Assembly (NCBI GenBank): GCA_011033025.1
Contig: WFMF01000049.1
Location: 682,001 to 746,000 of the forward strand
DNA length: 64,000 bases
Origin: Beroe forskalii
Taxonomy: Eukaryota; Ctenophora; Nuda; Beroida; Beroidae
Direction of reading: 5' to 3'
Made by a program: the position numbers and the translations under genes
Shown: positions 30,964 through 57,332 of the stretch, piece by piece
Position numbering within the stretch: position 1 is the first letter of the stretch
How the letters are laid out: each line of letters opens with the position of its first letter
Notes under the pieces: generated by a model
Database searches by the model: none
What the model saw: only the letters and a program-made list of their open reading frames with translations
Told to the model about the DNA's origin: nothing

Positions 30964-31759
30964 CTAGCAGGCCCGTTGGGCCTACAAATACACAGATTAC
31001 TTGGCGTTGTTACGCAGCACCTCGTTCGAAATTTTTGACCTATGAAATTCAAATTGATTTAATACTTTTTGTCGCATCCAAAATTCCAATCAGGTCAATA
31101 GTTATGAAATCAAAACAGTATCACCTAAACATTCAATTTTATGAAGGAGCAGAGTGGAATAATAGTTCGTCGGTTAGTCGTGCTAAACCATGTGAATTTG
31201 TTCCGTTTTTATTGCAAGATGATGCTAATTCTGACAACCGATTTTCATACTGACATTGGACAATCTTGCTTTGCTCGCATTAATCCAGACCAGGAACTGT
31301 GTTCGTAATCTACCACTCCTATATTTGAAGGGATTAAATTGTACAATTTAGTGAACCTTGAATTGCAAGACTATAACTTTACTACTGCAATCACTGACAC
31401 AGCATTGATTAGCGACCGACCTCTGCCACAGTTTTATGAAAACAAACCATCTGAAATATCTTCCGTTGTTAAAGTTATGACCAGTCTCCATCTTGAGATC
31501 TTGACTTCGAAGTATTAAGAAAACGTCAAATTTTGAAAAACAACAGCACAGCATTCAACAGTAGTAGCGTAATAGAAAGCACTCGCATAGAACTGATCAT
31601 AATCTGCACGTGCACCAAAATCAGTCTCCATAGCAACGGCGCCTCATTTCTCCCTTTTGCATTCGTTTCTCTTGATATTTTCTTGGCAAGCTCAAATTTA
31701 ATTGTGGACGGCGGCTCATACAAACATTATTCACGTGTGACTTTACTTTATATATAAGA
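30964..31759 (-). mobile_element. Helitron-like non-autonomous element H1
   Basis: On the minus strand the element begins TCTTATATATAAAGTAAAGT and ends with a hairpin (GTAGGCCC-AAC-GGGCCTGC) followed by CTAG. The flanking bases are A before TC and T after CTAG, the usual Helitron insertion between A and T. The 5' TC, 3' CTRR and subterminal hairpin are the family hallmarks. It has no terminal inverted repeat, no target duplication and no Rep/helicase frame. Inside lies a CACGTG at 31607-31612, 11 bases from an RFX X-box match at 31624-31637. The short frames inside are not genes. Confidence 0.8.
31624..31637 (+). promoter_or_regulatory. RFX X-box match in H1
   Basis: GTCTCCATAGCAAC fits the X-box consensus GTHNYYATRRNAAC at all positions. 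Function is inferred only from the motif. Confidence 0.5.
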
Positions 31760-31785
31760 TCCCAACAAGTCAAAGTACCTACTTA

Positions 31786-32239
31786 GGGATTGTTCACATA
31801 TTACGTAATCACCTAGGGGGAGGGGGTGTTTTCAAATGATTATGTTTGATTATGGGGAGGGGGAGGGGGTTTGGTGGTTGATTACCTAATCAAAATATCC
31901 AATTCTTGACACAATTTTTGAATTTTTTGCCACAAATTCTTGGTATTTTTTGCAAAATTTTCTGAAAACCAACTCTGCAACATTTTTTAAAACTTACCTC
32001 AATATTTTCCAAATTATTAATTTTTCCAAAGTTGAAACATAATCGATTTTAAAGTATTTACACTGTCCATTTTCTTCACTTTCTACTCAAAAAGTTGGGG
32101 GGGGGGGGAGGTTAAGCCATGATTATGTAATATTCTCCTCAAGAGAGGGGGGTTGGGCTTTGATTATGTTTGATTATGAGGGGGGGGGGAGGGGGTTGAA
32201 AATGGCCAACAATTGATTACGTAATATGTGAACGATCCC
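31786..32239. mobile_element. MITE, 454 bp, TTA target duplication
   Basis: Terminal inverted repeats start GGGATTGTTCACATATTACG on the left and the complement of GGGATCGTTCACATATTACG on the right, with one mismatch in about 26 bases. TTA flanks it at 31783-31785 and 32240-32242. The interior has G-rich runs (near 31816, 31856, 32097, 32181) and TGATTATG words. A TWA target and GGG start fit PIF/Harbinger-type MITEs. No transposase frame. Confidence 0.85.
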
Positions 32240-32584
32240 TTATGATCATTCTCACAGTCAAAGGCCTGTGGCAGTGGATCTTGAGGAGCTTACACCAGTA
32301 CTTGTCTGATGTTGACAGACCCTCTCAAGATTCAGCGGCTGGCGTCAGTGGGTCATACATCATACGACAAATCAGTACTTACCCTCACTCTTTTCTTCAT
32401 ACATTCAAGTTCCAAGATATTGGTAAGTGAATAAAATAACTAATTTGTGTTCTCTTGAACTTGTTTTTTCCTTTTGAATTCATAGGTAAGACATGTGTAG
32501 GAATAGAATGACTGAAGGGGTAGCAGGTCAGTACTTCAATATCTATTTGCTCTAACCAATTAATTTAATGTTAATTGGTTAATA

Positions 32585-32769
32585 TACGCTAATCTAACGA
32601 CGCATAGTGGTATTGTTGCACTTATTGCACAAGGCGAAGCCGAGTGCCAATAAGTGTACTAATCACACGAGGTGAAGCCGAGTGTTGATTAGTACACTAA
32701 TGTGCACGAGGCGTCAGCCGAGTGCATATTAGTGCAACAATATCACTTCTGGGGAGTTAGATTAGCGTA
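32585..32769. mobile_element. TA-flanked fold-back element (185 bp)
   Basis: Ends TACGCTAATCTAAC and its complement, flanked by TA at 32583-32584 and 32770-32771. The interior repeats GGCGAAGCCGAGTG-like words (near 32633, 32660, 32707). Confidence 0.7.
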
Positions 32770-32884
32770 TAATACCACGACCAGTGCAATATGCCCTGAT
32801 ATTGCACTGTGGTTATTTGCACTGGAGTGGTATTATATAAAAACTGTACCTACTAAAGTAAATTAAAACAGATGCTGTACAGTA
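32770..32884. repeat. Short inverted repeat between two fold-back elements
   Basis: ATAATACCAC(GA)CCAGTGCAA near 32770 is inverted as TTGCACTGGAGTGGTATTAT near 32817-32836, forming a further hairpin adjacent to the flanking ones. Confidence 0.5.
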
Positions 32885-33366
32885 TACGCTTAGAGCATGG
32901 CTGGGAATGCGCTAATAGAAATTATTGCACGAGGTGGCCATTGTGAACTATTGTCGAACAGGCCAGGCAGACAATAGCCAATGTGCACGAGGCAGAGCCG
33001 AGTACAATATTCCCAATAACGTCATGACCATTTGCCATGCTCTTAGTATATTAGCCAATGTGAGTGCAATATTACTTATTGCGCCTACAAGTACCCTCAA
33101 AATTGGCTAATATGTATTAGCCAATTTTGAGGGTACTTGTAGGCGTGCAATAATAAGTAATATTGCACTCCTCACATTGGCTAATACACTTAGAGCATGG
33201 CAAATGGTCATGACGCTAATAAAATTATTGCACTCGGCTTCGCCTCGTGCAATAATTTGGTATTGTCGCACTCGGCCTGCTCCTCGGTCGCGACAATACA
33301 GAATATTACTGTCTACGCTCGTGCAATAATTTATATTAGCGCATTCCCAGCCATGCTCTAAGCGTA
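32885..33366. mobile_element. TA-flanked long palindrome (482 bp)
   Basis: The element begins TACGCTTAGAGCATGGCTGG and ends with its inverted copy, flanked by TA at 32883-32884 and 33367-33368. The whole interior folds back on a centre at 33113-33114 (AATTGGCTAATA-TG-TATTAGCCAATT), with a few short indels between arms. It shares the terminal TACGCT and the internal CGAAGCCGAGTGCAATA-type words with the 32585-32769 element, so they are one family. A TA duplication is typical of Tc1/mariner-type MITEs. Confidence 0.8.
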
Positions 33367-33368
33367 TA

Positions 33369-33934
33369 TTAATTGTTCAGGTTTTTTTGCAGTTCTATTG
33401 TTTCAAGTTCTATTGTTTCAAGACATAAACCTGTGAAGCTTTAAGAGTGTTCAAACTGTTGAGGGATTGAAATGTAATTGAATTAATGCTCTGCAAGTAC
33501 CTATCACACTCAGTCATATATATTTGCTCATCACTTTCAGTAATATACACAATTAATCAGTGCCTGGGTGAAATCACTGTAAATAATCCTAGAAATACCT
33601 GAAACTGATTCAAAACACGAAATAAAATAATACACACATATTCTGGGAACAGACACTTTAATTTGATCCATAACCACAATATGGCGAGGAGCCATGGGTG
33701 CAGGGCGATTCTTCAATACAAATGAGTAACAAATGGAATGCCCCCTGATCCATACTTACCTAAGTACTGTTCTATTTGTAGATTTGAAGTAGTGTTAGCT
33801 AAAAATACCATAAATTTATTAAGGTCTGTCCAGATCCAATGATAATAGGTACCTATTCTTTGATTTGATAATTAGCTTCGAGTTGGTGAGTTTTAATCAA
33901 GAACATACATACATTTTGATACATTTTGAAGGGT
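33369..33934. other. Intergenic, nothing recognised
   Basis: AT-rich; no gene seen. Confidence 0.45.
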
Positions 33935-34100
33935 TCAGCAGGGATCGCAGTTGGGATCAGTGTAGTCCACGTACTCCAGCCCCTCGTTCAGTACTCCAGT
34001 CGAGTAGGGAGTTGCTGTTGGAGGGTGTGTAACCCGGAACCGGTGGCTTATCCGGGAATTGAGCCAGGAATTCTCCCAGTGCTATTTTGAAGGCCTCGAG
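33935..34100 (-). pseudogene. LINE C-terminal tail fragment
   Basis: Minus strand encodes LEAFKIALGEFLAQFPDKP then PVPGYTPSNSNSLLDWS, then after a one-base shift VLNEGLEYVDYTDPNCDPC and a stop. It is the paralogue of 26889-27128. Only the tail is left. Confidence 0.6.
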
Positions 34101-34424
34101 TCATTCAAATGACGCCACAACTTCTAGATTATCATGCAAACACATGCATACTGTGGCATGTGCATAGTGCACGGGTTTGAATCTGAGGTTTGGTAAGAAA
34201 ATTCAAAGTGGCGTCATGTATATTTTGTACTGGCACAATACTTGCAAAAGACCTTTATAAGACCAGTGCCAGGGCCAGCCCATAATTTAGTCTTGTCTCA
34301 TGGCCCATGAGGGGTGTCACTGTCCGTTTTGTCAAAAAAAAACGGACACACAAATAGGACAAATCAGACATGTCCGTTTTTCTTATTTGTCCATTCTCTC
34401 CGTTTTTTCTGCTTTTGAAAAGCA
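34101..34424. other. Flank of FB2 with diverged palindromic words
   Basis: ACGGACAcacAAATAGGACA, GACATGTCCG and GTGTCACTGTCCG words here have loose inverted counterparts beyond the other end of FB2 (39150-39265), so the true element may reach about 34314. The core boundary used here is set by a 6-base flank match. Confidence 0.4.
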
Positions 34425-34589
34425 GGGGGGGGGCCAACCTCGAAAAACCCCGGGTGGATATAAAAATTGGCAAATGGGGGTTTAATTTTTCGGGGTTTAT
34501 GAGGGTTTAAGGAGGCTAAACTGATAAAAATAGCCGTTTTTCGGTCGGAAAATTCGATTTTCTCTCAAAATGGTACTACTTTAGTTGGG

Positions 34590-34990
34590 AATTTTCGGCT
34601 CTTCACTCAAATGGTACCATATTTGTTGAGGATTTTTGGCACTTTTCTGAAATGGTACCTTTTTTGTTGAGGATATTCGACCCTTTTCTGAAATGGTACC
34701 ATTTTGTTGACGATTTTCGACTCTCATCTGAAATGGTACCATATTTGTTGACGATTTTCAACCCTTTTCTGAAATGGTACCATTTTTGCTGAAGATTTTT
34801 GGCACTTTTCGGAAATGGTACCATTTTTGTTGACGATTTTCGACCCTTTTCTGAAATGGTACCATTTTTGTTGACGATTTTCGACCCTAATCTGAAATGG
34901 TACCATTTTTGTTGACGATTTTCAATCCTTTTCTGAAATGGTACCATTTTTGCTAGAAATTTTTTCTGGGCACTTTTCTGAAATGGTACC
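34590..34990 (-). repeat. 41-bp GGTACC satellite, left arm of FB2
   Basis: About ten units of AAATGGTACCATTTTTGTTG plus AcGATTTTCGACCCTTTTCTG. GGTACC recurs at 34613, 34655, 34695, 34735 and so on. The minus-strand peptide repeats (KIVNKNGTISE / MVPFQKR) are read-through. Confidence 0.9.
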
Positions 34991-35174
34991 TAGTACAGTC
35001 AAATCCTAATTTTTTCAGGAACAAATTCTACACCAAGCGATTTTGACTGTTTTCTATAGTTTTTTGCCCAAAAAATCGATCTAGCAACTTTCCAAGACTT
35101 TCCAGGGTGGGGAAAGTGCCGAAAAATCGATTTTTAGCTGAGGCGCAGCCGACTGACCTGTGAAAAATCATAAC

Positions 35175-35960
35175 TTGACCCAGGAAGGTCGTAGAGACTT
35201 CGTTTTAGGCTTAAAAGAAGCGCAATGGCCATGTTTATATACGACTTGTTCATAAACATATGCCCTAAAATGCTGAGGAACCGAGTTATGGGCGAAAAAA
35301 TGATTTTTTGGGCACCCGCGAGACATTGTGGAAGCGATTTTTGTATCTCGGCCCAGAAAGGTCGTAAAGACTTCGATTTGGGCTTCAAAGAAGCGCAATG
35401 ACCATGTTTATATACAACTTGTTAATGAACATATGCTCTAAAATGCCGAGGAACCGAGTTATGGGCGAAAAACTGATTTTTGGGGCACCCGCGAGACATT
35501 GTGGGAGCAATTTTGTATCTCGGCCTAGGAAGGTCGTTAGAGACTTTGTTTAGGGCTGAAAAGAAGAGCAATGGCCATGTTGATATAGAACTTGTTAATA
35601 AAAATGTGCCCTAAAATGCTCAGAAACAGAGTTATGAGCGAAAAACTGTTTTTGGGCACATGTAAGACATTGTGGAAGCGATTTTTGTATCTCAATTCTC
35701 AGCCCATGAAAGACGTAGAGACTTTGCTTTGGGCTTAAAAGAAGCGCAATGTCATTGTTTATATACGCCCTAGACATATGCCCTAGAATGATGAGGAACC
35801 GAGTTATGGGCGAAAAACTGAATTTTTGGGCACCTGTGAGATATTGCTGAAGCGATTTAGGTATCTTGGCCCAAGAGTCTTGAGTAAAGATTTCATTGTG
35901 GGCTGTAAATACGTGCAATGGGCATGTGTTACTTGTTATCAAAGGTATGTACTAAAATGC
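35175..35960 (-). repeat. 175-bp satellite, left arm of FB2
   Basis: About four and a half units sharing CCTAAAATGCtgAGGAACCG, GTTATGGGCGAAAAA, GACATTGTGGAAGCGATTTT and AAGAAGCGCAATGgCCATGT; the unit start moves from about 35281 to 35455 and onward by about 175 bases. Divergence increases toward the centre of the element. Confidence 0.9.
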
Positions 35961-36460
35961 TCTAGAACAAAGTCATGTAATTTTAGTTTTCTTCTGAGTT
36001 GAGGCAATTTTCCTGGGCTCAGCCTAGGAAGGTCATTGAAACTTATCAAAATAATACAATAGCCATGTTTATATACAGACTTGTATAGATTTGATAAACT
36101 GATATGGGGCTCCCTACTAAGGCAAGCACAATTTTCTAATCACAGCTTTGCCCCAAGAAGGGCTTAAAACTTAAAAAGAACGGCAACTGTGTAGACTATT
36201 AGGGGCTAATGTAAAGATGATGATTGATGATTCATTGATGACACCTAGCTCTACGACCTGTATGTGTGGCAATACCTAAAACTTAGTCCATATACTGCTT
36301 TGGTGAACTAGGATATAAAATTGCTTCAGCCATGTCTATTGTCTGATGAGTCATGGCCGATATTGCCAAAACATCAGGTTTTTGCTAATAATCTGAGGTC
36401 TACAATGAAATCTACAAGCCTCTTGGGCAGAGATGCAGAAATAGCATTGGCCATCTTACT

Positions 36461-36990
36461 ATTCTTCATCATATATATATTTATCTATGTAATTATGTTT
36501 GTCTGGCGTCTGTCCGGTCTGACACCACTCCGTAATGTATCAGAAGACGTGAAATTAGACGCTTGACACCGGTTAACTAGACTATATGGATAGTATAGAA
36601 CTGCCTCATCAGCAAATTCACAGTAGGTTATAAATATTTTGAAATAAGGTCTTAGGTACTGCTTTCTAGCAGGATCCAGGCTGTCCGGTCTGACATCACT
36701 TGCACAGAGCAGGATGTATATCATATGACTATATATAATTCTTCATCATATATATATATTTATCTATGTAATTATGTTTGTCTGGCGTCTGTCCGGTCTG
36801 ACACCACTCCGTAATGTATCAGAAGACATGAAATTAGACCCTTGACACCGGTTAAACTAGACTATATATGCTTATATGGATAGTATAGCACTGCCTCATC
36901 AGCAAATTCACAGTAGGTTATAAATATTTTGAAATAAGGTACTGCTTTCTAGCAGGACCCAGGCTGTCCGGTCTGACATCACTCGCAACC
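36461..36990. repeat. Two-copy direct duplication in the centre of FB2
   Basis: Copies at about 36461-36705 and 36738-36985 share CTTCATCATATATATATTTA, GTCTGGCGTCTGTCCGGTCT, GTATCAGAAGAC, GACACCGGTTAA and TCTAGCAGGAtCCAGGCTG blocks. Confidence 0.85.
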
Positions 36991-37054
36991 CAATCGAATA
37001 CTCGACCGGAGGTCGCGGGTTTTGCTAGTGTCTTATAATGCACAAAACATCAGT

Positions 37055-37140
37055 TTTTCGCCAATAACTTTGTTCTGGAGCATTTGAGGACATATGTTTA
37101 TAAACATATGTCCTCAAATGCTCCAGAAGAAAGTTATGGG
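37055..37140. repeat. Perfect palindrome at the FB2 arm turn
   Basis: TCTGGAGCATTTGAGGACAT followed by ATGTTTATAAACAT and the exact inverse, centred near 37097; part of the 175-bp unit in two orientations. Confidence 0.85.
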
Positions 37141-38270
37141 CGAAAAACTGATGTTTTGGGCATAAATTCACATTTCGTACAAATCCAAAATCAAGCTTCA
37201 ATGACCTTCCTGGGCCAAGATTGCTTCCACAATGCCTTGCAGGTGCCTAAAACACAGTTTTTTGCCCATAACTCGGTTCCTCAGCATTTTAGGGCATATG
37301 TTTGTTAACAAGTCGTCTATAAACATGGCCATTGCGCTTCTTTTAAGCCCTAAACGAAGTCTCTACGACCTTCCTGGGCCGAGATACAAAAATCGCTTCC
37401 ACAATGTCTCGTGGGTGCCCCAAAAATCAGTTTTTCGCCCATAACTCGGTTCCTCGGCATTTTAGAGCATATGTTCATTAACAAGTTGTATATCAACATG
37501 GTCATTGCGCTTCTTTTAAGCCCAAATAGAAGTCTTTACGACCTTCTTAGGCCTAGGCCGAGATACAAAAATCGCTTCCACAATGTCTCATGGTTGCCCG
37601 AAAAATCAGTTTTTCGCCCATAACTCGGTTCCTGAGCATTTTAGGGTATATGTTTATTAGCAAGTCGGCTATAAACATGGCCATTGCGCTTCTTTTAAGC
37701 CCTAAATGAAGTCTCTATGACCTTCCTGGGCTGAGATACAAGAATCGCTTCCACAATGTCTCGTGGGTGCCCCAAAAATCAGTTTTTCGCCCATAACTCG
37801 GTTCCTCGGCATTTTAGAGCATATGTTCATTAACAAGTTGTATATAAACATGGTCATTGCGCTTCTTTTAAGCCCAAATCGAAGTCTTTACGACCTTCCT
37901 AGGCCTAGGCCGAGATACAAAAATCGCTCCCACAATGTCTCGCAGGTGCCCAAAAAATCAGTTTTCCGCCCATAACTCGGTTCCTCGGCATTTTAGAGCA
38001 TATGTTCATTAACAAGTCGTAAATAAACATGGCCATTGCGCTTCTTTTAAGCCCAATTCGAAGTCTTTACGACCTTCCTGGATCTAGATACAAAAATCGC
38101 TTCCACAATGTCTCGCGGGTGCCCAAAAAACAGTTTTTTGCCCATAACTCTGTTCCTGAGCATTTTAGGCCATATGTTTATTGACAAGTCGTATATAAAC
38201 ATGGCCATTGCGCTTCTTTTAAGCCTAAAACGAAGTCTCTAAGACCTTCCTGGGCCAAGTTATGATTTTT
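37141..38270 (+). repeat. 175-bp satellite, right arm of FB2
   Basis: About six units, inverted relative to 35175-35960; GCCCATAACTCGGTTCCT recurs near 37262, 37437, 37617, 37790, 37970 and 38141. Confidence 0.9.
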
Positions 38271-38459
38271 CATAGGTCAGTCGGCTGCGCCTCAATTAAA
38301 AATTGATTTTTCGGCACTTTCCCCACCCTGGAAAGTCTTGGAAAGTTGCTAGATCGATTTTTTGGGCAAAAAACTATAGAAAACAGTCAAAATCGCTTGG
38401 TGTAGAATTTGTTCCGATTTTGGGCTATTTTCGGCCAGATTTGACTGTACTAACCATTT

Positions 38460-39040
38460 TTGTTTAGGATTTTCAACCCTTTTCTGAAATGGTACCATTT
38501 TTGCCGGAGATTTTTTCTGGGCACTTTTCTGAAATGGTACCATTTTTGTTGAGGATTTTCGACCCTTTTCTTAAATGGTACCATGTTTGTTGACGATTTT
38601 CGACCCTTATCTGAAATGGTACCATTTTTGTTGACGATTTTCAGCCCTTTTCTGAAATGGTACCATTTTTGCTGAAGATTTTTTGGCACTTTTCGGAAAT
38701 GGTACCATTTTTTGTTGACAATTTTCGACCCTTTTCTGAAATGGTACCTACCATTTTTGTTGAGGATTTTCAACCCTTTTCTGAAATGGTACCATTTTTG
38801 CTGAAAATTTTTGGCACTTTTCTGAAATGGTACCATTTTTGTTGAGGATTTTCGAACCTTTTCTTAAATGGTACCACTTTTTGTTGAGAAATTTTAAAAT
38901 TCAATCAGAAACAGTACCATTTTTTAGAAAATTTTCCGATTTTTTTTCAAATGGTACCACTTTTGATGATTATTTTCGACCCTTTTCTGAAATGGTACCA
39001 TTTTAGTTGTGGATTTTTGGCCCTATTTTGAAATGGTACC
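38460..39040 (+). repeat. 41-bp GGTACC satellite, right arm of FB2
   Basis: About fourteen units inverted with respect to the left array overall order; the sequence of each unit (AAATGGTACCATTTTTGTTG) reads much the same in both arrays because GGTACC sits in a partly palindromic AAATGGTACCATTT context. Confidence 0.85.
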
Positions 39041-39148
39041 CATTCAAACCCCCAAAAACCCCGAAGTGGATATAAAAAAAGCCAAATAGGGGTTTAATTT
39101 TTCGGGGTTTATGGGGGTTTTTCGAGGTTGGCCCCCCCCCCCAAAGCA

Positions 39149-40800: not shown

Positions 40801-41290
40801 GATTCGATTCGCCTTTAAAATTTTCGCCCTCGGGCCCTTCGGGCCCTCGGGCTCATAACTTCTACATAAGCTTTGCCAACCCCTTCGATCAAATACTTAC
40901 GGTGCTTAATCGTGTTTGTATTGCATTTGTGAAAAATTAAATTTTTGTTAATTTGAGAAAAAACTCAATGTTATTATTGCAAAACCTTCCTATGTGTGTT
41001 CAAATCTTCGAGGATTTACTTGAACATTCAACTTTTTTCATCTTAGATGTGCCATTCTCCCAAAAAGCTCACGCGAGTGGATATATACCATATACTCCTC
41101 GCCTCATGGGCTGAATTTCGTATAGCACTCGGGCTCTTCGAGCCCTGCGTGCTATACGATATATATCCCACTCGGGCTAGCGCCCTCGAGGGATATATTT
41201 TCATATCGCACGCGCATGCGCGTGCGATATGAAATTCAGCCCTAGAGGCTGCGGGTATATGTATATATATCTTCCAAAGAACCACACCAT
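40801..41290. repeat. Hairpin-rich GC patches
   Basis: GCCCTCGGGCCCTTCGGGCC at about 40826 folds on itself. At 41041-41285 an imperfect inverted repeat links GGGCTGAATTTCGTATAGCAC to GTGCGATATGAAATTCAGCCC, with inner CACTCGGGCT / AGCCCGAG words and GCGCATGCGC. It looks like a degenerate fold-back element. Confidence 0.5.
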
Positions 41291-42931
41291 TCTATAATAT
41301 TATGTTAATATGTGTCCTTTCCCAGCTTCCCCTCGGTGTCTCCGTAGTGAGGATTAATTTTAACTATCTATCCCACGGCTTGATTACTATCATGATGTGT
41401 CACATATATTAGTGGATGTCACTATAAGACCCTATCTAATTGAGATGTAATCGGCCACGTTACTATCAATAGCCTGGTCGAGCTAACGCCATTGTACCTT
41501 CGCTAATAAATACAGATCTTCTAATTACCGGATTGTTGTTAAAATGAGTTATGTATGAGTTGCAATTAATAGAGCTATAAAGCATTAGTGCAGTGACTTT
41601 GTTACCTGAGTTATAATATCATCGCGTGTCAGTGTCACTTGGACACTTGCTACTTTTCCCTACTTATAAGATAGGTAGATATAGGTAGACAATATATAGG
41701 GATACTTTCCGAGGGATGCTTTCCGAGGGCGCAGCTCGAGGGGTGTATACTGTATCCGGTTTGGATTGACAGCAGCCGAAACGGCGAGGGTCTTAACCCG
41801 CTTAATACCCGATCAGGTGAGTGTCTATGAGTCTATGTATCGTGGAAGCATAGACACCAATGAAAACGTCTAAAGCCATTGCAGTTGAGTATCAGTTGCC
41901 AGTATCAGGAATGATGCTGTTAGTTTATTTAATTAAGTGTGTGTATGGTTATAACTGTGTGGGGGTTCCCCAAATTGTGTGTTGGCGTGTTGCAATAGGT
42001 ACTAACAAATCATCTTATAACAAGTTGGATTTTAAAAGTTTTATTAGTTTATTGTGAATTTATCATTGCAACACCTATATAATTTGAACTTTTATTAATG
42101 GATTAAACTCACACAAATTAACTACTACTTAATTTCAATTGAGAATACATCTAGTTAACAGAGTTGTGTTAAGTGCCGCACCATATAATTACATAATTAC
42201 CAATTACCCCACTACCCTGTTAAACTCTATCAAAAGAACCATTTCCCGGGGTCCCTGCCAAGTTGCTTTGTGCGGGAACACCTCTTTATTAAAATATGAC
42301 CTTGAGATGCTCAATTATCGCGAAATCAGATATCTTCTTACCCCGGTCTGCTCTCATTGGTACACAATGAGCAATGGGTGTCACAGATGGGCCAGATAGC
42401 TCCGGAGTTCCCTAACACTGGCCGTACATGAGCTATCATTATTGTCGGTAATCTGCACGCCTCATTGCTCCTTCACAAAGATACCCAACTCCCATAATTT
42501 CCTATAATTTCACTAGACTTAGTCCCAGCTGCTGCCGGTGAACATGATACTTGTACACTCGATCAGCTAGGTACTAAGATGCCTTCTGTTGCTTGGTCGT
42601 GGCCCCCAGGAATGAATTTCGTTCAAATAATTGTAAGTGGTGAAATCAAGCCGAGGTTTGAAAGTTCTTGTTACAGTAAGTAGATTCCTGTTATGTCTCG
42701 CTGTTATCAAGTTATTGCCACTGCTGAAGGTTTACAACGCCAGTTTTATCCCTCAGAATCCCGATTCCAATCTCGCCTAATTCTAAGTAAGTTTGCAAAT
42801 GCACACTTCCTGCAAGTTCATAGTTTTTATTTCTAGAATAATCCCTGTGCATACCTATTAAAGTTATTTCTTTATTTGTTATTTCGTTGCATCCCCTCTA
42901 GAATAATGTGTCACGTCTCTACCTCTAGTGT
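41291..42931. other. Intergenic; one small dispersed repeat
   Basis: At about 41695-41800 the words GGAtACTTTCCGAGGG, GCAGCTCGAGGGG and GGCGAGGGTCTTAA form a piece that recurs inverted at about 52965-53035 (AGACCCTCGCCC, TTGAGCTGCTCCC, GGAAAGTATCC). Frames at 41860-42399 have no recognisable domain; part of this region could be 3' untranslated sequence of the minus-strand glycosyltransferase. Confidence 0.45.
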
Positions 42932-44577
42932 CTACACTTTGCGTTTGTAAAAGCCCCACCGCCATGAAAACAGCTGTATATACCGCATGTCCCAGGATCG
43001 TTTTTTGTCTCGGAAAACCGGCTCCTCCCTTAAGTAATGGAATCGTTTCTTATTGTGAATCACTTTGAATTCCGGACATAAAGCGACCTTCATCCCTTCA
43101 GCTCGAAACCTCAGGAATATGTCCTTGTGCTCCTTCTTCTTAAGTTCTGCGCTCCACCCACCCACCCTCTGCATATCCTTGGTTTTGGCAACGAAGAAAT
43201 TATGCGTCATGTCACATCGTAGACACTTGGGGAAATTAACAATGGGTTCTGGGCTTGCCTCACACGATCCACTGTGGACCCAATTGCAACCTCTTGTGTA
43301 TATGCGAGCATCTTGACACAGCGTAGTATTAAAGATGAAATTTCCGATGAAGTTTTCATGTCCATGTGTTGTGGACCTGCCACCAGCAACTGAAGCATCA
43401 GTGGTATCCAGTAACTCAACCAGACCTGCAATGTCAGTGTGAAGGTCAAATATAGCATCATCATCGAAGAGGCCAGTGTAGGTGGTTTGTACCATTCTGA
43501 CCCCTATGTTCCTGCCTTCTGCTATCCCGACATTGCTCTCCTCACCCACCACGTAAGTGAGAAGTGGGGTGCTTAGTAGCTGGTCCAACACCCCATCCGC
43601 ATACTCCACCTCAGCATCGTCCACTACAATCATAGGCAGGTGGTAGCCCAACACCCGCTTGATGCTCTGTGCCAGGTCCAGCACTAGAGGCACCCGGCCA
43701 CCTGTCTTCAGTACTATTGTTACACAGTCTGCCAGGTGCACGCACCGAGTGATTTCCTCGGGAGGCAGGGGAAGGACGGGCGGGGCTCTGTTAAAGGCGA
43801 GTGCTGGCATGTCACAGCCATCAGCAGTCTCAGGGGGTGGGTGGAGCAGCGCTTTGCGGTCCTGAAACGAAAAGTTCACTTGAAAATGGAAAGTTGGTGT
43901 CATTGAACATGAATTTTATAATTTAGTTCTCTCAATGAAAATTTCCAAATGCAAATATGAGATAGCTGATTTGTACGTACCTCCAAGAAAGCATTTTCGT
44001 CTTGCAAAATCATCTGAGATAGTACTTTGTGGCAGTCTGTCAGAGCTACTCTGTCCGACCTTGCCTTCGCACCCATCAATTTAAGAGACTCGACATTGCC
44101 TTTGAAGGTGTCAGGGACGGGCGTCAGACAATGCCCAGTCACTGTTTGAAGAGTGGTGGTGTTTAGTACGAGGAAGGTGAGAGAAAGTGGGCTGCATTCC
44201 CCCACCACGACAAACCACTCGTGTGAGGGGTCTGACATGACACACATACCACTGGCAGCGTGTTTCAGCCATCCCTGTCGTGTGAACCTGAAGCTGTGAG
44301 CTGCACGAGGGTTGCACCACCCAGGAACCAGCTGGTGCTCCTTGTCCAGCACCAGACAGAAACCCACCCACTCGTTAATGATTCGGAATGAACTGTCTTC
44401 TGTCTCTGTTTGGGAGGCTGATCCTGTACTCCGGAATGGGGACGTGACGAGATTCAGGGGAGCAAAGTCCATACCCACTTTGTTATGAAAGTATACAAGA
44501 AGTTGTGCGGAGATAACAAGGCATGTCAGAACAACCAAAATCTTTTTCAGCAATAATTTGACATTGCTCAGAAACAT
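42932..44577 (-). CDS. Lectin-like + GT-A glycosyltransferase, copy A (beta-1,4-GalNAc transferase-like)
   Basis: Two exons, 44577-43981 and 43861-42932, joined across a 119-bp intron (GAG|GTACGT donor, TTTCAG|GAC acceptor, phase 0), give about 508 residues. The methionine at 44575-44577 is chosen by alignment with copy B; the frame is open to 44652. A basic start (LLLKK) and one hydrophobic segment (ILVVLTCLVISAQLLVYF) predict a type II Golgi anchor. Residues about 64-192 look like a beta-trefoil R-type lectin domain (GWCNPRAAHSFRF, LKHAASGMCV, GHCLTPV). From about 244 a GT-A domain follows: VTIVLKTGG, MIVVDDAE, SNVGIAEGRNIGV, LFDDDA (metal-binding DxD-like) and NFFVAKTKDM...GGWSAEL, as in GT12 B4GALNT enzymes. 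The likely catalytic loop reads EHKD rather than EHED in copy B, so activity may be altered. Sugar specificity cannot be told. Confidence 0.85.
43862..43980 (-). other. Intron of glycosyltransferase copy A
   Basis: 119 bases, GTACGTAC... to ...CGTTTCAG. The 3' half is nearly identical to that of copy B, while the 5' half has about 21 extra bases. Confidence 0.85.
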
Positions 44578-45582
44578 CTCTCCTTGGAAAGCCTTGGAAG
44601 ACCTCAAATTGGTGTGCGGTATAATTATCATAAAACTATGATACATTATCAAAGATTTGTGGAAATAATACGTTTCAACTATTGAATCTAACGTCTGAAG
44701 ATGGTGTTATAAGTGGAAAATACTTAATATTTTACTGAAAAATGATCTGCTTTTGATCTGAGAATAAAGAAAAGCTAAATTGTATAAAACTGGTTGATTG
44801 AACGAGTAGAGTCGGTTAATGTAGCAAAAAATTCAAGAAAACGTCAATAAAAGGTAAATGAGAACGATGTATACGAATGAACAACCATCCAATCGACGAT
44901 AATGTCAATGTTATAACTTCCTTGTTGCATGTTTTGAATGTTTGTAAACATGAAAGTATAGCTATCAAATTATTTCATATTTTATTATTGACTTCATTAT
45001 TGTAAGTAATGCCCCTGGAATGAATGTTATTGCCCAATTATCGGCAAAAAATTCTGCACACACCAATTTTAAACCACCCACACTCTCCCAAATGTTTACC
45101 CAACCTCACTCCCCTAACCAATGGTTTACAAATCCAACTGGTTTATATCCCATTACTATAACATTGTTCTCAGAATTCTGTTGTTTTATTATTCAGTTTA
45201 GGTTTATATCCCAAGCTGAAACCAGCAACTTTTAACTTGAATTTAAACGTTCCAGCCAATTTTCAAAAAATTTTCAAATGGCCTAGTAGTGTGGGTGGGT
45301 GAACTGGTGGTGAAGTTTGGTGTGCTTAAAACCACGGGGGGTTCGTTGCCAATGGGTAGGCGGTAACATTCTTACATTCTTTCAGGGGGTATTACTTATC
45401 ATCAAGAATTCAAAAGTAAGATATTTGATAATAAAGAACTTGATAGCTGCACTTCCATGTTTACAAACATTCCACACATGCAACTATGAAATTGTAGCAT
45501 TGAACTTATCATGAATTGGGTGGTTGTTTATACTTATAAACCATTACATTGACTGTTTTTAATTTTTTTTGCTACAAGGGGT
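44578..45582. other. Bidirectional spacer between the two glycosyltransferases
   Basis: About 1 kb with no obvious inverted symmetry, so the duplicated arms stop close to the two start codons and the two upstream regions differ. A shared promoter is possible but no TATA pair or motif stands out. Repeated words such as CACCCACACTCTCCCAAATG and GTGGGTGGGTGAACTGGTGG occur at 45067 and 45291. Confidence 0.6.
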
Positions 45583-47201
45583 ATGTTTCGCACCAAATTT
45601 TTGCTGAAAAAGATTTTGGTTGTTCTGACATGCCTTGTTTTCTCCGCACAACTCCTTGTATACTTTCATAACAAAGTGGGTATAGACTTTGCTCCCCTGA
45701 ATCTCGTCACGTCCCCATTCCGGAGTACAGGATCAGCTCCCCAAACAGTGACAGAGGACAGTTCATTCCGTATCATTAACAAGTGGGTGGGTTTCTGTCT
45801 GGTGCCGGACAAGGAGCACCAGCTGGTTCCTGGGTGGTGCAACCCTCGTGCAGCTCACAGCTTCAGGTTCACACGACAGGGATGGCTGAAACACGCTGCC
45901 AGTGGTATGTGTGTCATGTCAGACCCCTCACACGAGTGGTTTGTCGTGGTGGGGGAATGCAGCCCACTTTCTCTCACCTTCCTCGTACTAAACACCACCA
46001 CTCTTCAAACAGTGACTGGGCATTGTCTGACGCCCGTCCCTGACACCTTCAAAGGCAATGTCGAGTCTCCTAAATTGATGGGTTTGAAGGCTAGATCGGA
46101 CAGGGTAGCTCTGACAGACTGCCACATGGTACTATCTCAGATGATTTTGCAAGACGAAAATGCTTTCTTTGAGGTACGTAAAAATTAGACATTTTCATGG
46201 AGAGAACTAAATTATAAAATTCATGTTCAATGACACCAACTTTCCATTTTCAAGTGAACTTTTCGTTTCAGGACCGCAAAGCGCTGCTCCACCCACCCCC
46301 TGAGACTGCTGATGGCTGTGACATGCCAGCACTCGCTTTTAACAGAGCCCCGCCCGTCCTTCCCCTGCCTCCCGAGGAAATCACTCGGTGCGTGCACCTG
46401 GCAGACTGTGTAACAATAGTCCTGAAGACAGGTGGCCGGGTGCCTCTAGTGCTGGACCTGGCACAGAGCATCAAGCGGGTGCTGGGCTACCACCTGCCTA
46501 TGATTGTAGTGGACGATGCTGAGGTGGAGTATGCGGATGGGGTGTTGGATCAGCTACTCAGCACCCCACTTCTCACTTACGTGGTGGGTGAGGAGAGCAA
46601 TGTCGGGATAGCAGAAGGCAGGAACATAGGGGTCAGAATGGTACAAACCACATACACTGGCCTCTTCGATGATGATGCTAAATTTGACCATCACACTGAC
46701 ATTGCAGGTCTGGTTGAGTTACTGGATACCACTGATGCTTCAGTTGCTGGTGGTAGGTCGACAACTCATGGAAATGAAAACTTCATCGGAAATTTCATCT
46801 TTAATACTACACTTTGTCAAGATGCTCACGAATACGTACGAGATATCAAATGGCGCCACAGTGGATCGTGTGAAGAAAGCCCAGAACCCGTTGTTAATTT
46901 CCCCAAGTGTCTACGATGTGACATGACGCACAATTTCTTCGTTGCCAAAACCAAGGATATGCAGAGGGTGGGTGGGTGGAGCGCAGAACTCAAGAAGAGG
47001 GAGCACGAGGACATTTTCCTGAGGTTCCGAGCTGAAGGGATGAAGGTCGTTTTATGTCCGGAATTCAAAGTGATTCACAATAACAAACGAGCTCATTACC
47101 AAACTAAAGGGTCGGTTTTCCGCAATAAAAAACGATACTGGAAAAAGCGGTATATACAGCTGTTTTTGTGGCGGTGGGGTTTTTACAAACGCAAGGTATA
47201 G
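45583..47201 (+). CDS. Lectin-like + GT-A glycosyltransferase, copy B (beta-1,4-GalNAc transferase-like)
   Basis: Exons 45583-46173 and 46272-47201 with a 98-bp intron (GAG|GTACGT, TTTCAG|GAC) encode about 506 residues. The start MFRTKFLLKKILVVLT gives a type II signal anchor (about residues 9-28). Residues about 62-190 form the beta-trefoil-like region. The GT-A domain runs from about 244 (VTIVLKTGG) through VVDDAE, GIAEGRNIGV and FDDDA (DDD at about 330-332), to GGWSAELKKREHEDIFLRF, where E-H-E-D (about 441-444) is the expected acidic catalytic loop, and VIHN. It ends in GFYKRKV. Copies A and B have identical protein from residue 198 to the DDD motif, then about 27 differences in the last 173. 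Expected to sit in the Golgi and transfer a sugar, perhaps GalNAc, onto glycan or glycolipid. Confidence 0.87.
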
Positions 47202-47690
47202 ATGCTATAGAGGTATAGTGACGACAGATTTCACAATATCCATTATTCCAAATGGATACAACGACATAAAAAATTGTTCACATTAAAAAATTGTTTTGTT
47301 GTTCCACTTTCGGAAGTTTGACTGCCCAGAATTGATGTTAGACACTCACTTTTCCAGCTTGTCGAACTTGCAGTCGCCAACTGACTGAAATCCTCACACA
47401 GTCTTAATAATGCTCAACATATTTACTCCTGTCGAACTTTGTGACTTTAGCAAACTGAGTTTTGAAACCCAGAAGTTCGACAGCTTTTATTGGCTTACTT
47501 TTACCAGGAAAAGCTCCTTTTAAAATTTAAAGTTTACCTTTTGGCACTCCTACTTGTTTACCCACCCACGTCTCACACTCTGCAATTAATTAATTACTCA
47601 CCCAAACTCCCGCCATTGTTAAGTCACCCACAACGCATTTGATAACCCTCCTAGCTCCTGCACGCCAACAAATGGGCAAAATGAGCGATC
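47202..47690. other. Downstream of copy B, nothing recognised
   Basis: Sequence similarity to the copy A downstream region lasts only about 20 bases past the stop (TAGANGCTA..AGAGGTA). A GTCGAACTT word recurs (47359, 47430, 47482). No gene. Confidence 0.5.
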
Positions 47691-47773
47691 CGTCTAGGCT
47701 AGTATCACCCAGTATCGCGCCAGTAGCATGCCAGTAGCACGCCAGTATCACCCAGTATCGCGCCAGTAGCATG
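47691..47773. repeat. 11-bp minisatellite, left block
   Basis: Units of GCCAGTAGCAC/T and GCCAGTATCAC. The same array continues at 48886 after an inserted element. Confidence 0.85.
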
Positions 47774-48885: not shown

Positions 48886-49045
48886 GTAGCATGCCAGTAG
48901 CACGCCAGTATCAAGCCAGTAGCATGCCAGTAGCACGCCAGTATCAAGCCAGTATCACCCAGTATCGCGCCAGTATCACAACAGTTTACCCACTCGCCAG
49001 CAGCACGCCAGTATCAAGCCAGTAGCACGCCAGTTTACCCACTCG
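48886..49045. repeat. 11-bp minisatellite, right block
   Basis: About fourteen units of GCCAGTAGCAC, GCCAGTATCAA and variants, in the same orientation as 47691-47773. Confidence 0.85.
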
Positions 49046-49532
49046 CCTTCCCCATTTGCTTGTCCCAGCTACTCGTCTACTTCATCATTTTCTATTTAAT
49101 GTTACCTCGCGTAAACAGAACGGACAGTTCGCAGTTAGTATTCTGACTGTGTCATGGTTACTAATCAAGTCTCTTGGAGCGTCACTTAGGTTATTACGCT
49201 GAACACGCAGGAGCCATGGTAAACATGTCCAGTGATTTCCATTGTATCTCAATGACCAATGACCAAGTGAGCTAGTGGCGTCAATAATTCATGACATTTA
49301 AATCGTAAGCCGGACGAGCAATTATGCACCCCATATGATGTCGTCTCATATAGAATGCTATCATTATACAGTACAGCTGGTCTGACTATTCTTTGTTGCT
49401 TTGTGGTTATGCTACGATCTGATGACCGATTTTAGTGGGTCGGATGTTTTGAATCTTATCAATCGGAAATTCAGAATAAGATTTGGATGGTTTCAATGGA
49501 AAATTTCTGCTTTATTTTGCATTATTAAGTTA
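49046..49532. other. Intergenic, nothing recognised
   Basis: No gene or repeat seen between the minisatellite and the Helitron array. Confidence 0.45.
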
Positions 49533-50267
49533 CTAGCAGGCCCGTTGGGCCTGCAAGCACACAGCTCACTCGGCGCTGCTATGCAGCACATCGTTCGCAA
49601 ATGTATGACTTTATGAGCACGAAATTAAATATTCACTTTAATGAAGGAGCAGAGTGAAAAATAGTTCGTCGGTCAATCTTAGTCGTGCTTAACCATACGT
49701 GACATTTGTTCCGTTTGGCGTTTTGATTCCAAGATGATGTTATTCTGACAAATAATTCTCATTCTGACATCGGACAATTTTGTTTTGTTCCAGGCCAGGA
49801 ACTGTCATCGTAATATGCTTCACTTATATTCGACTCGATTAAATTGTACACTTTCGTATACCTTAAATTGCTCTTACAACTGCCAATTTCAAACATACAG
49901 TTCCTACCATTATAACCGATACATCATTAATTATCGACCGACTTCTACCACAGTTTTATGAAAACAATCCATCTGGAATAACCTCTGTTATTCAATTTAT
50001 GCCCATTCTCCATCTCGAAATCTTGAATTTGAAATTAAGAGAACGTCAAATTTTCAAAAACTACAGCACAGCACTTAACATTAGATGCGTAATAAACAGT
50101 ACTATCAAAGAACTGACCATAAGCTGCACGTGCACAAAATTTATTTTCCATAGCAACGGCACCAATATGCGCCATTTAGCCTTCATTTCTCTTGATAATC
50201 TCTTGGCAAGGTCAAAAAAATTTACAGCGATGGGGAAAAAACGCGAAACTTCACTTTATATATAAGA
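49533..50267 (-). mobile_element. Helitron-like element H2 (735 bp), start of a four-copy chain
   Basis: Minus strand begins TCTTATATATAAAGTGAAGT and ends hairpin GCAGGCCC-AAC-GGGCCTGC then CTAG, with T following. It is the closest relative of H1, with shared interior blocks. CACGTG lies at 50127-50132, 11 bases from a near X-box (TTTTCCATAGCAAC, 50144-50157; first base off). Confidence 0.8.
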
Positions 50268-50562
50268 CTAGCAGGCCCGTTAGGCCATCTAATACACAGC
50301 TCACCCAGAGCTCGCAAATTTCAGCCAATGCGATTCAAATTTAATAAAAAAATTTACCGCGTCAAAAAACTCCGATCCGTTCAAAAGTTGTTAGACATCG
50401 CAACGTAATCAAAACACCATTAACAGAAATAAGCGCGCGCGCAATTCTCCGTGCACGTGTCACCATGGTTACCCGCACAAATCGTAATGCGCGCGCGTTC
50501 CGAAGATGTTTCCGCCGTTACGTACAAACAGAAAAACAGAGAATGCGAAATTATATTAGAGA
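50268..50562 (-). mobile_element. Helitron-like element H3 (295 bp)
   Basis: Directly abuts H2: its 3' CTAG (plus 50268-50271) touches the 5' TC of H2. Starts TCTCTAATATAATTTCGC on the minus strand. The hairpin at the CTAG end is degraded (GGCCT/AACGGGCCTGC). It carries CACGTG (50454-50459) overlapping a near X-box (50459-50472). Confidence 0.75.
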
Positions 50563-50871
50563 CTAGCGGGCCCGTAGGGCCTGCAAATACACAGCTCACT
50601 CGGCGCTGCTACGCAGCACCTCGTTCGCAAAATTCAAATCCACCAAATGCTTTTTACCGCATCAAAAAATTCCAATCACATCAAAAGTTACGCAGCAACA
50701 TACTCAAAACAGCATTAAACAGAAATGATCACGCTCGCGCAATATGTAACCATAGCAACGCGCGCGCCTATATCCATATTGCACGTGGGCGCTCCAAAAT
50801 GTGTCTACAAAAGGACAAAAAACGTGACGGAGGTACATAATAATACAGAGGTTGCGAAATTATATTAGAGA
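50563..50871 (-). mobile_element. Helitron-like element H4 (309 bp)
   Basis: Abuts H3. Minus strand starts TCTCTAATATAATTTCGC and ends GCAGGCCC-TAC-GGGCCCGC then CTAG. Next to the 3' hairpin it has the family block GAGGTGCTGCGTAGCAGCGC. A perfect X-box lies at 50746-50759 with CACGTG at 50782-50787. Confidence 0.8.
50746..50759 (+). promoter_or_regulatory. RFX X-box match in H4
   Basis: GTAACCATAGCAAC fits GTHNYYATRRNAAC at every position. Confidence 0.5.
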
Positions 50872-51182
50872 CTAGCAGGCCCGTTGGGCCTGCTAATACA
50901 CAGCTCACTCGGTGCTGCTACGCAGCACCTCGTTCGCAAATTTCAAATCAACTAAATACTTTTTACCGCATCAAAAAATTCCAATCAGGTCAAAAGTTAC
51001 GGAGCAGCGTATTCAAAACATCATTAAACAGAAATGAACGCGCGCGCAATATGTAACCATAGCAACGCGCGTTTATACCAAAAACTGCACATGGGCGCTC
51101 CAAAATGTGTCTACAAAAGGACAAAAGACGTTACGACGTACATAATAATAATATTACAGAGGTTGCGAAATTATATTAGAGA
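50872..51182 (-). mobile_element. Helitron-like element H5 (311 bp), end of the chain
   Basis: Minus strand starts TCTCTAATATAATTTCGC after an A and ends GCAGGCCC-AAC-GGGCCTGC then CTAG, abutting H4. It is very close to H4 in sequence, so the chain is fairly young. A perfect X-box is at 51053-51066; the neighbouring E-box is CACATG. Confidence 0.8.
51053..51066 (+). promoter_or_regulatory. RFX X-box match in H5
   Basis: GTAACCATAGCAAC, identical to that in H4. Confidence 0.5.
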
Positions 51183-54100: not shown

Positions 54101-56175
54101 AACGTACTCCACATGAAAAACACACGGTTCCAATTGCTGGCACGTGTGGCTCGAATTGCTACTCGTGTTGTTAGATATAATATGTGCATACCTATACTAA
54201 ACGCAGTTTATTATATTCTGTGCAATTCATATATTATTTGACAAGAACCACCACTTTTGTCAAATAATGTCGATATATTGGTCCTATACCTATTCATTTA
54301 TTAAAACCAACTGAGGCATTATACATAGAACTATGTCAACTATGTTAAGACTCAAGGGTACACGGGTACATAAGTTGTTTGACGCAAAATGTCCACAGCG
54401 GACGGCAAAACCATCTAAATATGGAAACATTTAGAGTTCAAGCAATATCGAGAATTTGCAATTTTTTGCTTCACAGTTCGTTTTGTAAGACCCAGTCCCA
54501 TGATAGCGTTTGATGTTGAAGTACTAGGTACGCTTTATCAAGAAAGCTTTCATATCCATACTTAAACTAATCAGTTCTTATTGTTTAGTGCTTTAGACAG
54601 CTTCATAGCTCGCCGCTTCACTGGCCCAATCTGCTTGTTAAAGTATGATAACTCCTTTAGAATTGATGCCATGGTTTATCAAAGAACTCGCAGGGGTTAA
54701 TATTTCTTGAACAAATTCATTTTAACCCAGATATTTTAAAGGGGTGTAGAATAGACGGAGGGGCAGAAAAACTTATTATTTACTGAGTTACAGTATTAGA
54801 AATCGCTTTAATGTATAATTTTTAATTCATTTCTTCCATAGCTACTGATATCAATTTTCAGACGTAAGCTGACATTCGTCGATGTTAAGCTGTTGATAAA
54901 TTGACAATTTTTTACAAAAAATATCATTTTACCTATTATTTTACCTATAATATTATTCCTAGAATTTTCATTCGCTAATTTGAAAACTTCGGAGGTTTCT
55001 GGTTTATTAGAATTCCGGCAGAATTCAGACATTGAAATTATGTTTTTCTATTAAGTTGAACAGCCATCATATTTTTAACTTGAATGAAACCAGTTTCATA
55101 ATTCTTTCTCATGTTAGAGTTGCTAGGAGACTCGACTGCATGACGAATTTACACCAGTTTTATGACGAATTTACGCCACTTTTATGACGAATTTACGCCA
55201 CTTCCATTTTCCGGGCACTTTCCAGAAATTACAGTAGTTGTATTGCAAACCTGGACCTGATATACACATATCGTATTTCTCACCTTCCCAAACCACGATC
55301 TCTGCCAACCCTCTCATTTGCCTTTTTGTATTGACAAAAAGGTCAATGGGGAGGGAAAAATATGTTTTTCTCACAATAAATAGTCTAAAAACAGAGACAT
55401 GAGTTGACCGAATTAGAGCAATTTTTTACTGTTTTGTGTTTTGTGTTTTGTAGCTTAAAATAAGAGTTAAACACACATTAAAAAATCTTAAACTTCTGAA
55501 GAATCAAAGCAGACATTTTTCTGAAACTTCCTACCGACTGGTTACGTGTTTCCACCGCCATATTACCGCTGACTAGACGAATGCGGCCTGGGTAACTTGA
55601 AAACCCTGTGGTGAGCAGTCACCGAGTTGTGGCAGTGTGTCGTAGGAAGTAGGGCCGAGACATGTGATTTAAGGGGGAATATATGTGCGACAATTCCGTT
55701 TTGTGAGTAATTACTTTATTCTCTTTTGTGAGTGCTCTTAGCATTTGTGAGACGTTATCAAAGCATTATTAAAGCATTAAATATTCTATCTGTTGGGACT
55801 TGGTATTGACTGCAAATGTGTTCACTGTCCACTCACTATAATTTGTTGTAGGTATGTACATCAAAACAGATTGAGTAAGTTAGTAGAGTAGCCGAATATA
55901 AAATAAAATGCAATAGAATAGACCGATGAACTCAAGTATTAACTCTTTGAATCTTTGAATTCTGATACCAAGAATATACGCTAAGAATCGATAAAAATTG
56001 CAGCTTTGTAAGCTTGTAGAGTTGTAGGTGAATCGCGATGATTCACCTACTTCAACTTTGACTTTGATTTCCTGACACACCTTCATTTTTTCAACATATC
56101 AATACTTCAAAAGCGTTGCTTGCTTTACGTTGGTTATTTTAGATATTAAAACTGCATGATTTCGGTTATATAATA
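51183..56175. other. 5 kb without recognisable genes
   Basis: Open frames are short (60-80 codons) and show no domains. Notable items: an inverted copy of the small 41695-41800 repeat at about 52965-53035; a repeated TAGCACATCATATTCATTTT / TAGATCATATTCGTTTTGAT block near 52744 and 53052; three GACGAATTTACGCCACTTTT-like units at 55141-55200. Confidence 0.45.
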
Positions 56176-57332
56176 CTAGAAGGCCCGTTGGGACTTGGGC
56201 CTTCTGGGTCAAAGGACAACCGACCCTTTCAATGCTGACCACAGGGCAACACCATGCCAGCATATAAGTATATAATTACCCTAGTCAGGAACTTTGTTTC
56301 TAAGACGTGAAAAGTTGAAAAAAGTTGACATTAAAGTACGCAGTATTTTCCAAATTCGTGAGCCACAACGCAGATAATTCATAAATATTGAATTATGAAA
56401 CTTTATGACAAAAACAAGTGAAACAACATGATTGAAATAACATGATCAATTGCGGTTTTTCAACGTTTGGAAGTGTCAAATGTGATATTTAACACTAAGT
56501 AAGTCATTGATGCAATTTTTTGCTACTGGGGGTGGGGTGCAACGTAACGAAATTAAGAAAATTCACATGAAGGCTTTGAAAATAGATAAAAATATAGACC
56601 AAATTTTACGATTGCATATTAACCTCGAACAGCTGTTAAATGAGAAGAACTCAAGAATAATGTTTTCTAAACTAAAGTTCAGATAAGGAGAATAGATGGG
56701 CAACAAATTTGAATTCGAGCTCATTAATAAAATCAAAATTGTTTGCATTTTTATCTGTTCATAACCCACTTCTAGCTTCAGTAAATATGAACTGCTCATT
56801 CCGTCGAATTCTCGCAGCAAACCATCGAATTTCTTTCTTGAAAGAATTATCGCTAATTTTCACAATAAAACAACTCTTACCAATATCATTTCTCCTAAGC
56901 TCCAACAACAGTGATAGAAGTAAGTCTTCTGTCAAAAACTTTTTACCGGACTCGACAATTCCATTGGGAGCGTAAATTATGAATTTCAACGGTGAAAACG
57001 TTTCCAAAATACAAATTAACGAAATGGAAGATTCTTCGTTTAAATGCACGTGCAGTTTTGCGCGCGCTAGCCCATGTTTCCATAGCAACGCGCGCAACTG
57101 GTGAATCAAATATATAACTCGTTCTTGTTTTTCGCGACCCTTTTTCCAACTTTGAGCATTAATTACGGAAAATATAAAGCCTTTACGCAAAAAAGAAGAA
57201 TGTAGCAATACGAAGACACCTTTTTTCTTCCACCCTGCAAAAAATCGCGGGTTTTCAACTCCTAGTGTGTCAGATTTTCTGGGAGAGCGAAGGCTCCTAC
57301 CTTGAACTACCTCTCTCGATTATAATAATAGA
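56176..57332 (-). mobile_element. Helitron-like element H6 (1157 bp)
   Basis: Minus strand begins A|TCTATTATTATAATCGAG and ends with a hairpin (AGAAGGCCC...GGGCCTTCT) then CTAG followed by T. The hairpin stem matches the other copies but the loop is longer. Shared interior blocks include TGCACGTGCA (57045-57054) and the X-box with GCAACGCGCGC. The 149-codon minus frame at 56759-57208 overlaps the E-box/X-box module and is not supported as a gene. Confidence 0.65.
57076..57089 (+). promoter_or_regulatory. RFX X-box match in H6
   Basis: GTTTCCATAGCAAC fits GTHNYYATRRNAAC at every position; CACGTG lies 23 bases upstream. Confidence 0.5.

Follow-up and report, generated by a model that had tools for sequence, protein, structure and literature searches.

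X-box and E-box motif pairs near the 5' ends of Helitrons in the ctenophore Beroe forskalii

The analysed window, a 64-kb stretch (64,000 nucleotides) of Beroe forskalii contig WFMF01000049.1, contained six pairs of an RFX X-box and an E-box, all of them located inside non-autonomous Helitrons on the minus strand. Read on that strand, the elements started with TC at the 5' end and finished with a GGCCC..GGGCC-type hairpin followed by CTAG at the 3' end; an A preceded each free 5' end and a T followed each free 3' end. The elements and their motif pairs were as follows (positions within the window, with recounted ends):

30964-31759, minus strand: A1, non-autonomous Helitron of the A1 type, 796 nt; 5' end A followed by TCTTATATATAAAG at 31759; hairpin plus CTAG of the 3' end at 30964
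31624-31637, minus strand: A1 X-box, GTTGCTATGGAGAC on the element strand, 123 nt from the 5' end
31607-31612, no strand assigned: A1 E-box CACGTG; additional CACGTG at 31732, close to the 5' end
49533-50267, minus strand: A2, Helitron of the A1 type, 735 nt; last unit of the array, head to tail
50144-50157, minus strand: A2 X-box, one mismatch; E-box at 50127-50132
50268-50562, minus strand: A3, short Helitron, 295 nt; 86% identity over 209 nt with the leader of the Rep-Helicase copy H51
50454-50472, minus strand: A3 X-box (50459-50472, one mismatch) overlapping the E-box (50454-50459)
50563-50871, minus strand: A4, A-short Helitron, 309 nt
50746-50787, minus strand: A4 X-box (50746-50759) and E-box (50782-50787), the E-box closer to the 5' end
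50872-51182, minus strand: A5, A-short Helitron of 311 nt that opens the array; 5' end A followed by TCTCTAATATAATTTCGCAACC
51053-51093, minus strand: A5 X-box (51053-51066) and CACATG (51088-51093), the X-box within a (CG)n inverted repeat
56176-57332, minus strand: B, non-autonomous Helitron family, 1157 nt; 5' end A followed by TCTATTATTATAAT, 3' end GAAGGCCC..GGGCCTTCTAG followed by T
57047-57089, minus strand: B E-box (57047-57052) and X-box (57076-57089), the X-box 244 nt from the 5' end

The X-box consensus GTHNYYATRRNAAC was used as supplied by the first-pass annotation. Four of the six sites matched it perfectly (31624, 50746, 51053 and 57076, where both strands match) and two with a single mismatch (50144 and 50459); all six positions claimed in that annotation were recovered where it had placed them. 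The partner motif was CACGTG at 31607, 50127, 50454, 50782 and 57047, and CACATG at 51088 in the case of the X-box at 51053. The gaps did not exceed 23 nt, and the motifs at 50454 and 50459 shared one base. Counting 57076 on both strands, the window held five perfect X-boxes versus a shuffle mean of 0.38, and at least five were reached in none of 100 shuffles. There was no excess when up to one mismatch was allowed (20 matches versus a shuffle mean of 14.4; 17 of 100 shuffles gave at least as many). Counted from the 5' end of the element, the X-box preceded the E-box in A1, A2, A3 and B and followed it in A4 and A5. Thus, the elements share a motif set rather than one fixed block.

The Helitron-like identity proposed for the copies was borne out by their TC 5' ends and by the 3' hairpin with CTAG. 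The canonical arrangement of a TC 5' end, A/T insertion and no target-site duplication was present in A1, A5, B and a further type, C (TC..CTAG between a flanking A and T), while the 3' hairpin with CTRR took the form GGCCC..GGGCC plus CTAG in A1-A5 and B (GGCCTAACGGGCC in A3). A1-A5 belonged to one superfamily, with A2-A5 arranged head to tail at 49533-51182. The matches of B to the A elements at E<=0.1 were confined to the X-box region and the 3' hairpin, and its match to C consisted of one 14-nt stretch. By sequence comparison, B is a Helitron family separate from the A elements, whereas the copy at 57076 had earlier been grouped with the other copies in one family. Type C, 449 nt long and found at another locus (L079), had its own 5' sequence, an E-box followed by an X-box, and a 3' end of the same kind. 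Joining its flanks restored a continuous reverse-transcriptase reading frame, which fixed the boundaries of C, and the left flank had 11 additional matches in the genome.

The motif counts were extended to the 216-Mb assembly, with the reversed motif as the control for GTTGCTATGGNNAC. This X-box form occurred at 2780 places versus seven for the control, and the form GTTGCCATGGNNAC at 1198 places versus 60, palindromic sites being counted on both strands. An X-box followed by CACGTG within 4-30 nt was found at 1127 places and the opposite order at 351, each versus a control of 0; the two counts may include the same place twice. The exact Helitron 3'-end pattern GGCCCNACGGGCCTNCTAG was found at 1470 places, versus none for its control. 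On one contig (C1), 14 of the 22 GTTGCTATGGNNAC sites were in elements matching the Helitrons of the window, and CACGTG was 4-30 nt away at 15 of the 22, including all 14 Helitron-matched sites. Of the eight remaining sites, one belonged to a tandem X-box-like array (L084), a 196-bp duplication (L081) held two, and another was the one at L078. Among the first 100 listed GTTGCTATGGNNAC places, 67 had CACGTG 4-30 nt away. A same-strand Helitron 3' end (exact pattern, up to 1300 nt away) accompanied 33 of them, 19 downstream and 14 only upstream, as in arrays; none had an opposite-strand 3' end only, and 67 had none by the exact pattern. Based on the two tallies, a good part of the X-box excess, but not all of it, was tied to Helitrons. 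When copies were chosen by their 3' end alone, a perfect X-box was present within 900 nt upstream at six of eight main places (one of the eight being A5 itself) and at 11 of 15 overall. The earlier suggestion that the transposon spreads ready-made cis-regulatory modules is thus upheld as far as dispersal goes, with motif pairs far above control, and this concerns the sequences alone.

Two observations made by eye belong here. The two main places that had no X-box, L001 and L007, appeared to be truncated at the 5' end. At L078, which had no Helitron match, an X-box and two E-boxes were located directly upstream of an apparent ORF start, a possible host promoter.

A PF14214 profile search identified 20 places in the genome that may encode Rep, and the 4.5 kb upstream were examined at ten of them. 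Three of these ten loci (H50, H51 and H52) had leaders related to the A elements; the leaders aligned with A3/A4/A5 and were located upstream of the Rep ORF. H51 was approximately 8.8 kb long with both ends present, H50 measured approximately 9.8 kb from the 5' end to the 3' CTAG, and a search for the 3' end of H52 did not find it. In H51, the Helitron_like_N and PIF1 domains were encoded in one ORF (PF14214, 2e-50; PF05970, 2.3e-42), the Rep plus PIF1-type helicase combination of a canonical helper; H50 and H52, scanned for PF14214, matched it at 178.6 and 171.8 bits. AP endonuclease marks Helentrons; none was among the Pfam hits of four scanned H51 stretches. The first 300 nt of H51 carried an X-box at nt 39 and one CACGTG at nt 98. 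Those of H50 and H52 each carried CACGTG twice and had no consensus X-box, the best matches covering 8/12 and 9/12 positions and being equalled by 241/500 and 30/500 shuffles; H52 had the 10-base core CCATGGCAAC near nt 46. No perfect X-box was present in the 4.5 kb upstream at the seven other Rep loci, one of which (L059) had a bare GTTGCTATGG, and the motif is therefore not general to Helitrons in this genome. The identity between A3 and the H51 leader noted above makes the short elements look like a leader joined to a 3' end. Stretches in the H50, H51 and H52 leaders that looked tRNA-like by eye received no ARAGORN call (bacterial setting). A search of L093-L095 against Rfam gave no match at E<=0.01 and, for L095 at E<=10, one snoRNA match at chance level. 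The tRNA-like identity was supported by neither program and was dropped.

With regard to the host factor, the RFX_DNA_binding profile matched four exons on two contigs, and a 55-residue stretch of one of these exons aligned (E 2.5e-22) with 1dp7, the DNA-binding domain of human RFX1. The genome thus encodes an RFX1-like DNA-binding domain.

Taken together, these data favour the view, to which we assign a probability of roughly 0.58, that the motif pair is part of the leader in canonical Rep-encoding Helitrons and most likely serves there as a promoter or enhancer of the helper gene through host RFX and CACGTG-binding bHLH factors. These host factors would act on the X-box and E-box in the 5' leader, and the Rep gene would be transcribed from there. 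The non-autonomous copies, consisting mostly of the 5' leader and the 3' hairpin, would be deletion derivatives in which the pair was carried along, and every new copy would scatter another X-box and E-box. The direct observations behind this scheme comprise the element boundaries, the position in the leader, the coherence of strand and the genome-wide excess, together with the RFX1-like domain. It fits the place, strand and dispersal of the motifs and is the simplest account. The first-pass annotation had offered the use of host factors for the element's own transcription as one of its explanations; the leader position of the motifs in three Rep-encoding copies speaks for it, and the consensus X-box in only one of the three against it. 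A promoter role does not fully explain the two helpers that have no good X-box. In addition, the Rep ORF of H51 starts approximately 3.9 kb from the 5' end of the element, so a promoter role must assume a long or spliced leader. Why the non-autonomous families keep the motifs is likewise not fully explained, since they need no transcript of their own and a pure promoter role does not predict X-box retention in them.

Retention was evaluated in three samples of copies. The A1-type sample was not picked by motif: 14 places passed, 13 of them long enough, and adding A1 and A2 and removing L009, which is A2, gave 14 copies. It replaced a biased set of 12 X-box-picked copies plus A1 and A2. In this older group, the X core was intact in 12/14 copies versus five in the median window, and only 7/319 windows, the motif's own included, were as good; each of the two E-boxes was also intact in 12/14, versus a median of six, with 41/323 windows as good. 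The younger A-short sample of 46 comprised A5 and 45 copies from 30 loci, chosen by similarity to A5; only near-full-length matches were kept, shorter ones being dropped, and copies within one array are not independent. Here the X core was intact in 42 copies (median window 31; 35/301 windows as good), and the same number retained the E-box (median 36; 78/305 windows as good). The nine B copies, from ten loci, were approximately 95% alike throughout, with 185/689 windows as good as the X-box and 259/697 as good as the E-box, and this family is too young to tell whether the motifs are conserved. In these small samples, the X-box is thus kept in excess, with its core better retained than most stretches of the elements, most clearly in the older A1-type elements, while the excess for the E-box is weak. 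Conservation of the motifs relative to their flanks had been set beforehand as one test that could refute a dispersed module, and it came out for the X-box (7/319 A1-type and 35/301 A-short windows as good) and only weakly for the E-box. When the leaders were compared with their own dinucleotide shuffles, seven of nine had an unusual X-box match (0-5/500 as good), six of these seven being copies with an already known X-box site; the match was not unusual in H50 (241) or H52 (30).

This retention is what would be expected if the pair were a cis signal for mobility, with host factors near the 5' end keeping the site open or helping Rep to start, a requirement that non-autonomous copies would share. 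No alignment at E<=1e-4 was obtained among the first 300 nt of four groups, namely A1/A2, A3/A5 plus the H leaders, B, and C (the A1 and A2 sequences in this comparison and in the search for relatives start 1-2 bases inside the element), yet all these groups kept X-box-like sites in that region. The restriction of the B matches to the X-box region and the 3' hairpin for the A elements, and to one 14-nt stretch for C, points the same way, as do the intact X cores of the A1-type and A-short copies. The order of the motifs and their distance from the 5' end varied (best site at nt 39-249), as for bound factors and not for a strand-cleavage site. However, the consensus X-box was missing in two of the three Rep-encoding copies, which must have moved, and we know of no canonical Helitron that has been shown to need such host-factor sites. 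On balance, we consider a mobility signal unlikely. Its most far-reaching version is likewise improbable. In it, host RFX and bHLH factors bound near the 5' end would be required for mobility by several diverged families of canonical Helitrons; non-autonomous lineages would hold the X-box with much the same firmness as the 3' hairpin, whereas the order and spacing of the motifs would turn over, and more than 1000 X-box/E-box pairs would thereby have been seeded in the genome.

The motifs might also be inert look-alikes that became frequent only through the amplification of a few carrier families. The absence of special conservation in B agrees with such hitchhiking, as do the A-short windows that match the X core or the E-box, the A1-type windows that match either E-box, and other blocks of the elements that are equally conserved. 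The X-box was nevertheless kept across families whose remaining leader sequence had diverged, and few A1-type windows were kept as well as its core, which makes mere hitchhiking distinctly unlikely. Even less probable is a takeover of the copies by the host as regulatory modules, e.g., at ciliary genes. The Helitron-free motif group at L078 suggests that host promoters may use a similar combination, and the HSF-1 sites in Caenorhabditis Helitrons set a precedent (PMC6927752, accessible text), but L078 is a single example with a candidate gene seen by eye only. Finally, a single-strand hairpin that (CG)n repeats on both sides of the X-box would form, for use in rolling-circle transfer, is scarcely credible as the conserved feature: it was pronounced in A5 (z -2.37, 5/200 shuffles as good) and A3 (z -2.54, 2/200) and less so in B (z -1.61, 15/200), but A1 (z 0.21, 117/200) and C (z -1.16, 32/200) lacked it and kept both motifs, which rules it out as a principle common to all copies.

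The dispersal of these motif pairs by Helitrons can be set beside known systems. ISX of Drosophila is a Helitron-type element. According to the accessible text of PMC4384637, it spread 77 sites to which a host chromatin complex binds; these sites are called functional for dosage compensation. The accessible part of Garrigues et al. 2019 (PMC6927752) describes heat shock elements for host HSF-1 on Caenorhabditis Helitrons, and its authors also speculate on selfish co-option. Common to that case and ours are host-factor sites on autonomous and non-autonomous Helitrons; here, in contrast to the Caenorhabditis report, the sites are an RFX X-box and CACGTG in a different host, and, in contrast to both reports, they are known as motif sequences alone. 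RFX-family factor sites have been reported as amplified in pig SINEs (PMC10471783), which are similar in bearing RFX sites within a transposable element but are mammalian SINEs and not Helitrons, and the accessible text mentions no E-box partner. No report of a Helitron-borne X-box, or of Helitron, X-box and RFX together, was found in the accessible open-access literature. The dispersal of host-factor sites by Helitrons is therefore already known from HSF-1 in Caenorhabditis, and the X-box and E-box pair is the new part. If host RFX binds the copies, they would join the HSF-1 case in Caenorhabditis as another example of Helitrons that link their life cycle to a host regulator and scatter sites for it, the regulator here being one associated with ciliary genes. 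Natural insertions of different ages would then be available in large number for asking at what point a dispersed site turns into a working enhancer, and X-box retention in non-autonomous families raises the question of whether a host factor at the 5' end is needed by some canonical Helitrons. In line with the Caenorhabditis case, a large share of the motif copies was located in Helitrons (14/22 GTTGCTATGGNNAC sites, for one contig and one motif form).

Eight of the 22 X-boxes (RFX-type motifs) on contig C1 of the Beroe forskalii assembly (G000) lie apart from matches to the window's elements; among them are those at three loci, L078, L081 and L084. The duplicated stretch at L081 (G000:C1:1334463-1335372) carries two X-boxes spaced 196 bp apart, with no CACGTG found within 30 nt of either. 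Since a similar X-box spacing recurs on two other contigs (C2:816380/816575 and C3:244037/244233), the sequence arrangement suggests a second X-box-bearing repeat family. At L084 (G000:C1:1756618-1757331), units of approximately 16 bases (GTGTTGCCATAGTAAC) are arrayed in tandem, each of them a near-X-box, and no match was found between this array and the window's Helitrons. At L078 (G000:C1:1232293-1233006), one X-box and two E-boxes were observed immediately upstream of an apparent minus-strand ORF start; this locus is a possible host promoter with the same X-box/E-box combination as in the Helitrons.

The following other repeats were recorded in the window:
34510-39101, large repeats of both the tandem and the inverted kind, with units of 41 bp and approximately 173 bp
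42923-47210, large inverted repeat holding two ORFs that have a family-2 glycosyltransferase domain

The arms of the latter repeat were 94-96% complementary.

Antisense tRNA-like stretches were discerned by eye in the leaders of three Rep-encoding Helitrons (L093, L094 and L095), for which neither ARAGORN, run in its bacterial setting, nor Rfam returned a call. In L095, the H52 leader, a segment containing GGTGCTGCGAAGCAGCGCC is present three times ahead of the Rep ORF, at a spacing of approximately 600 bases.
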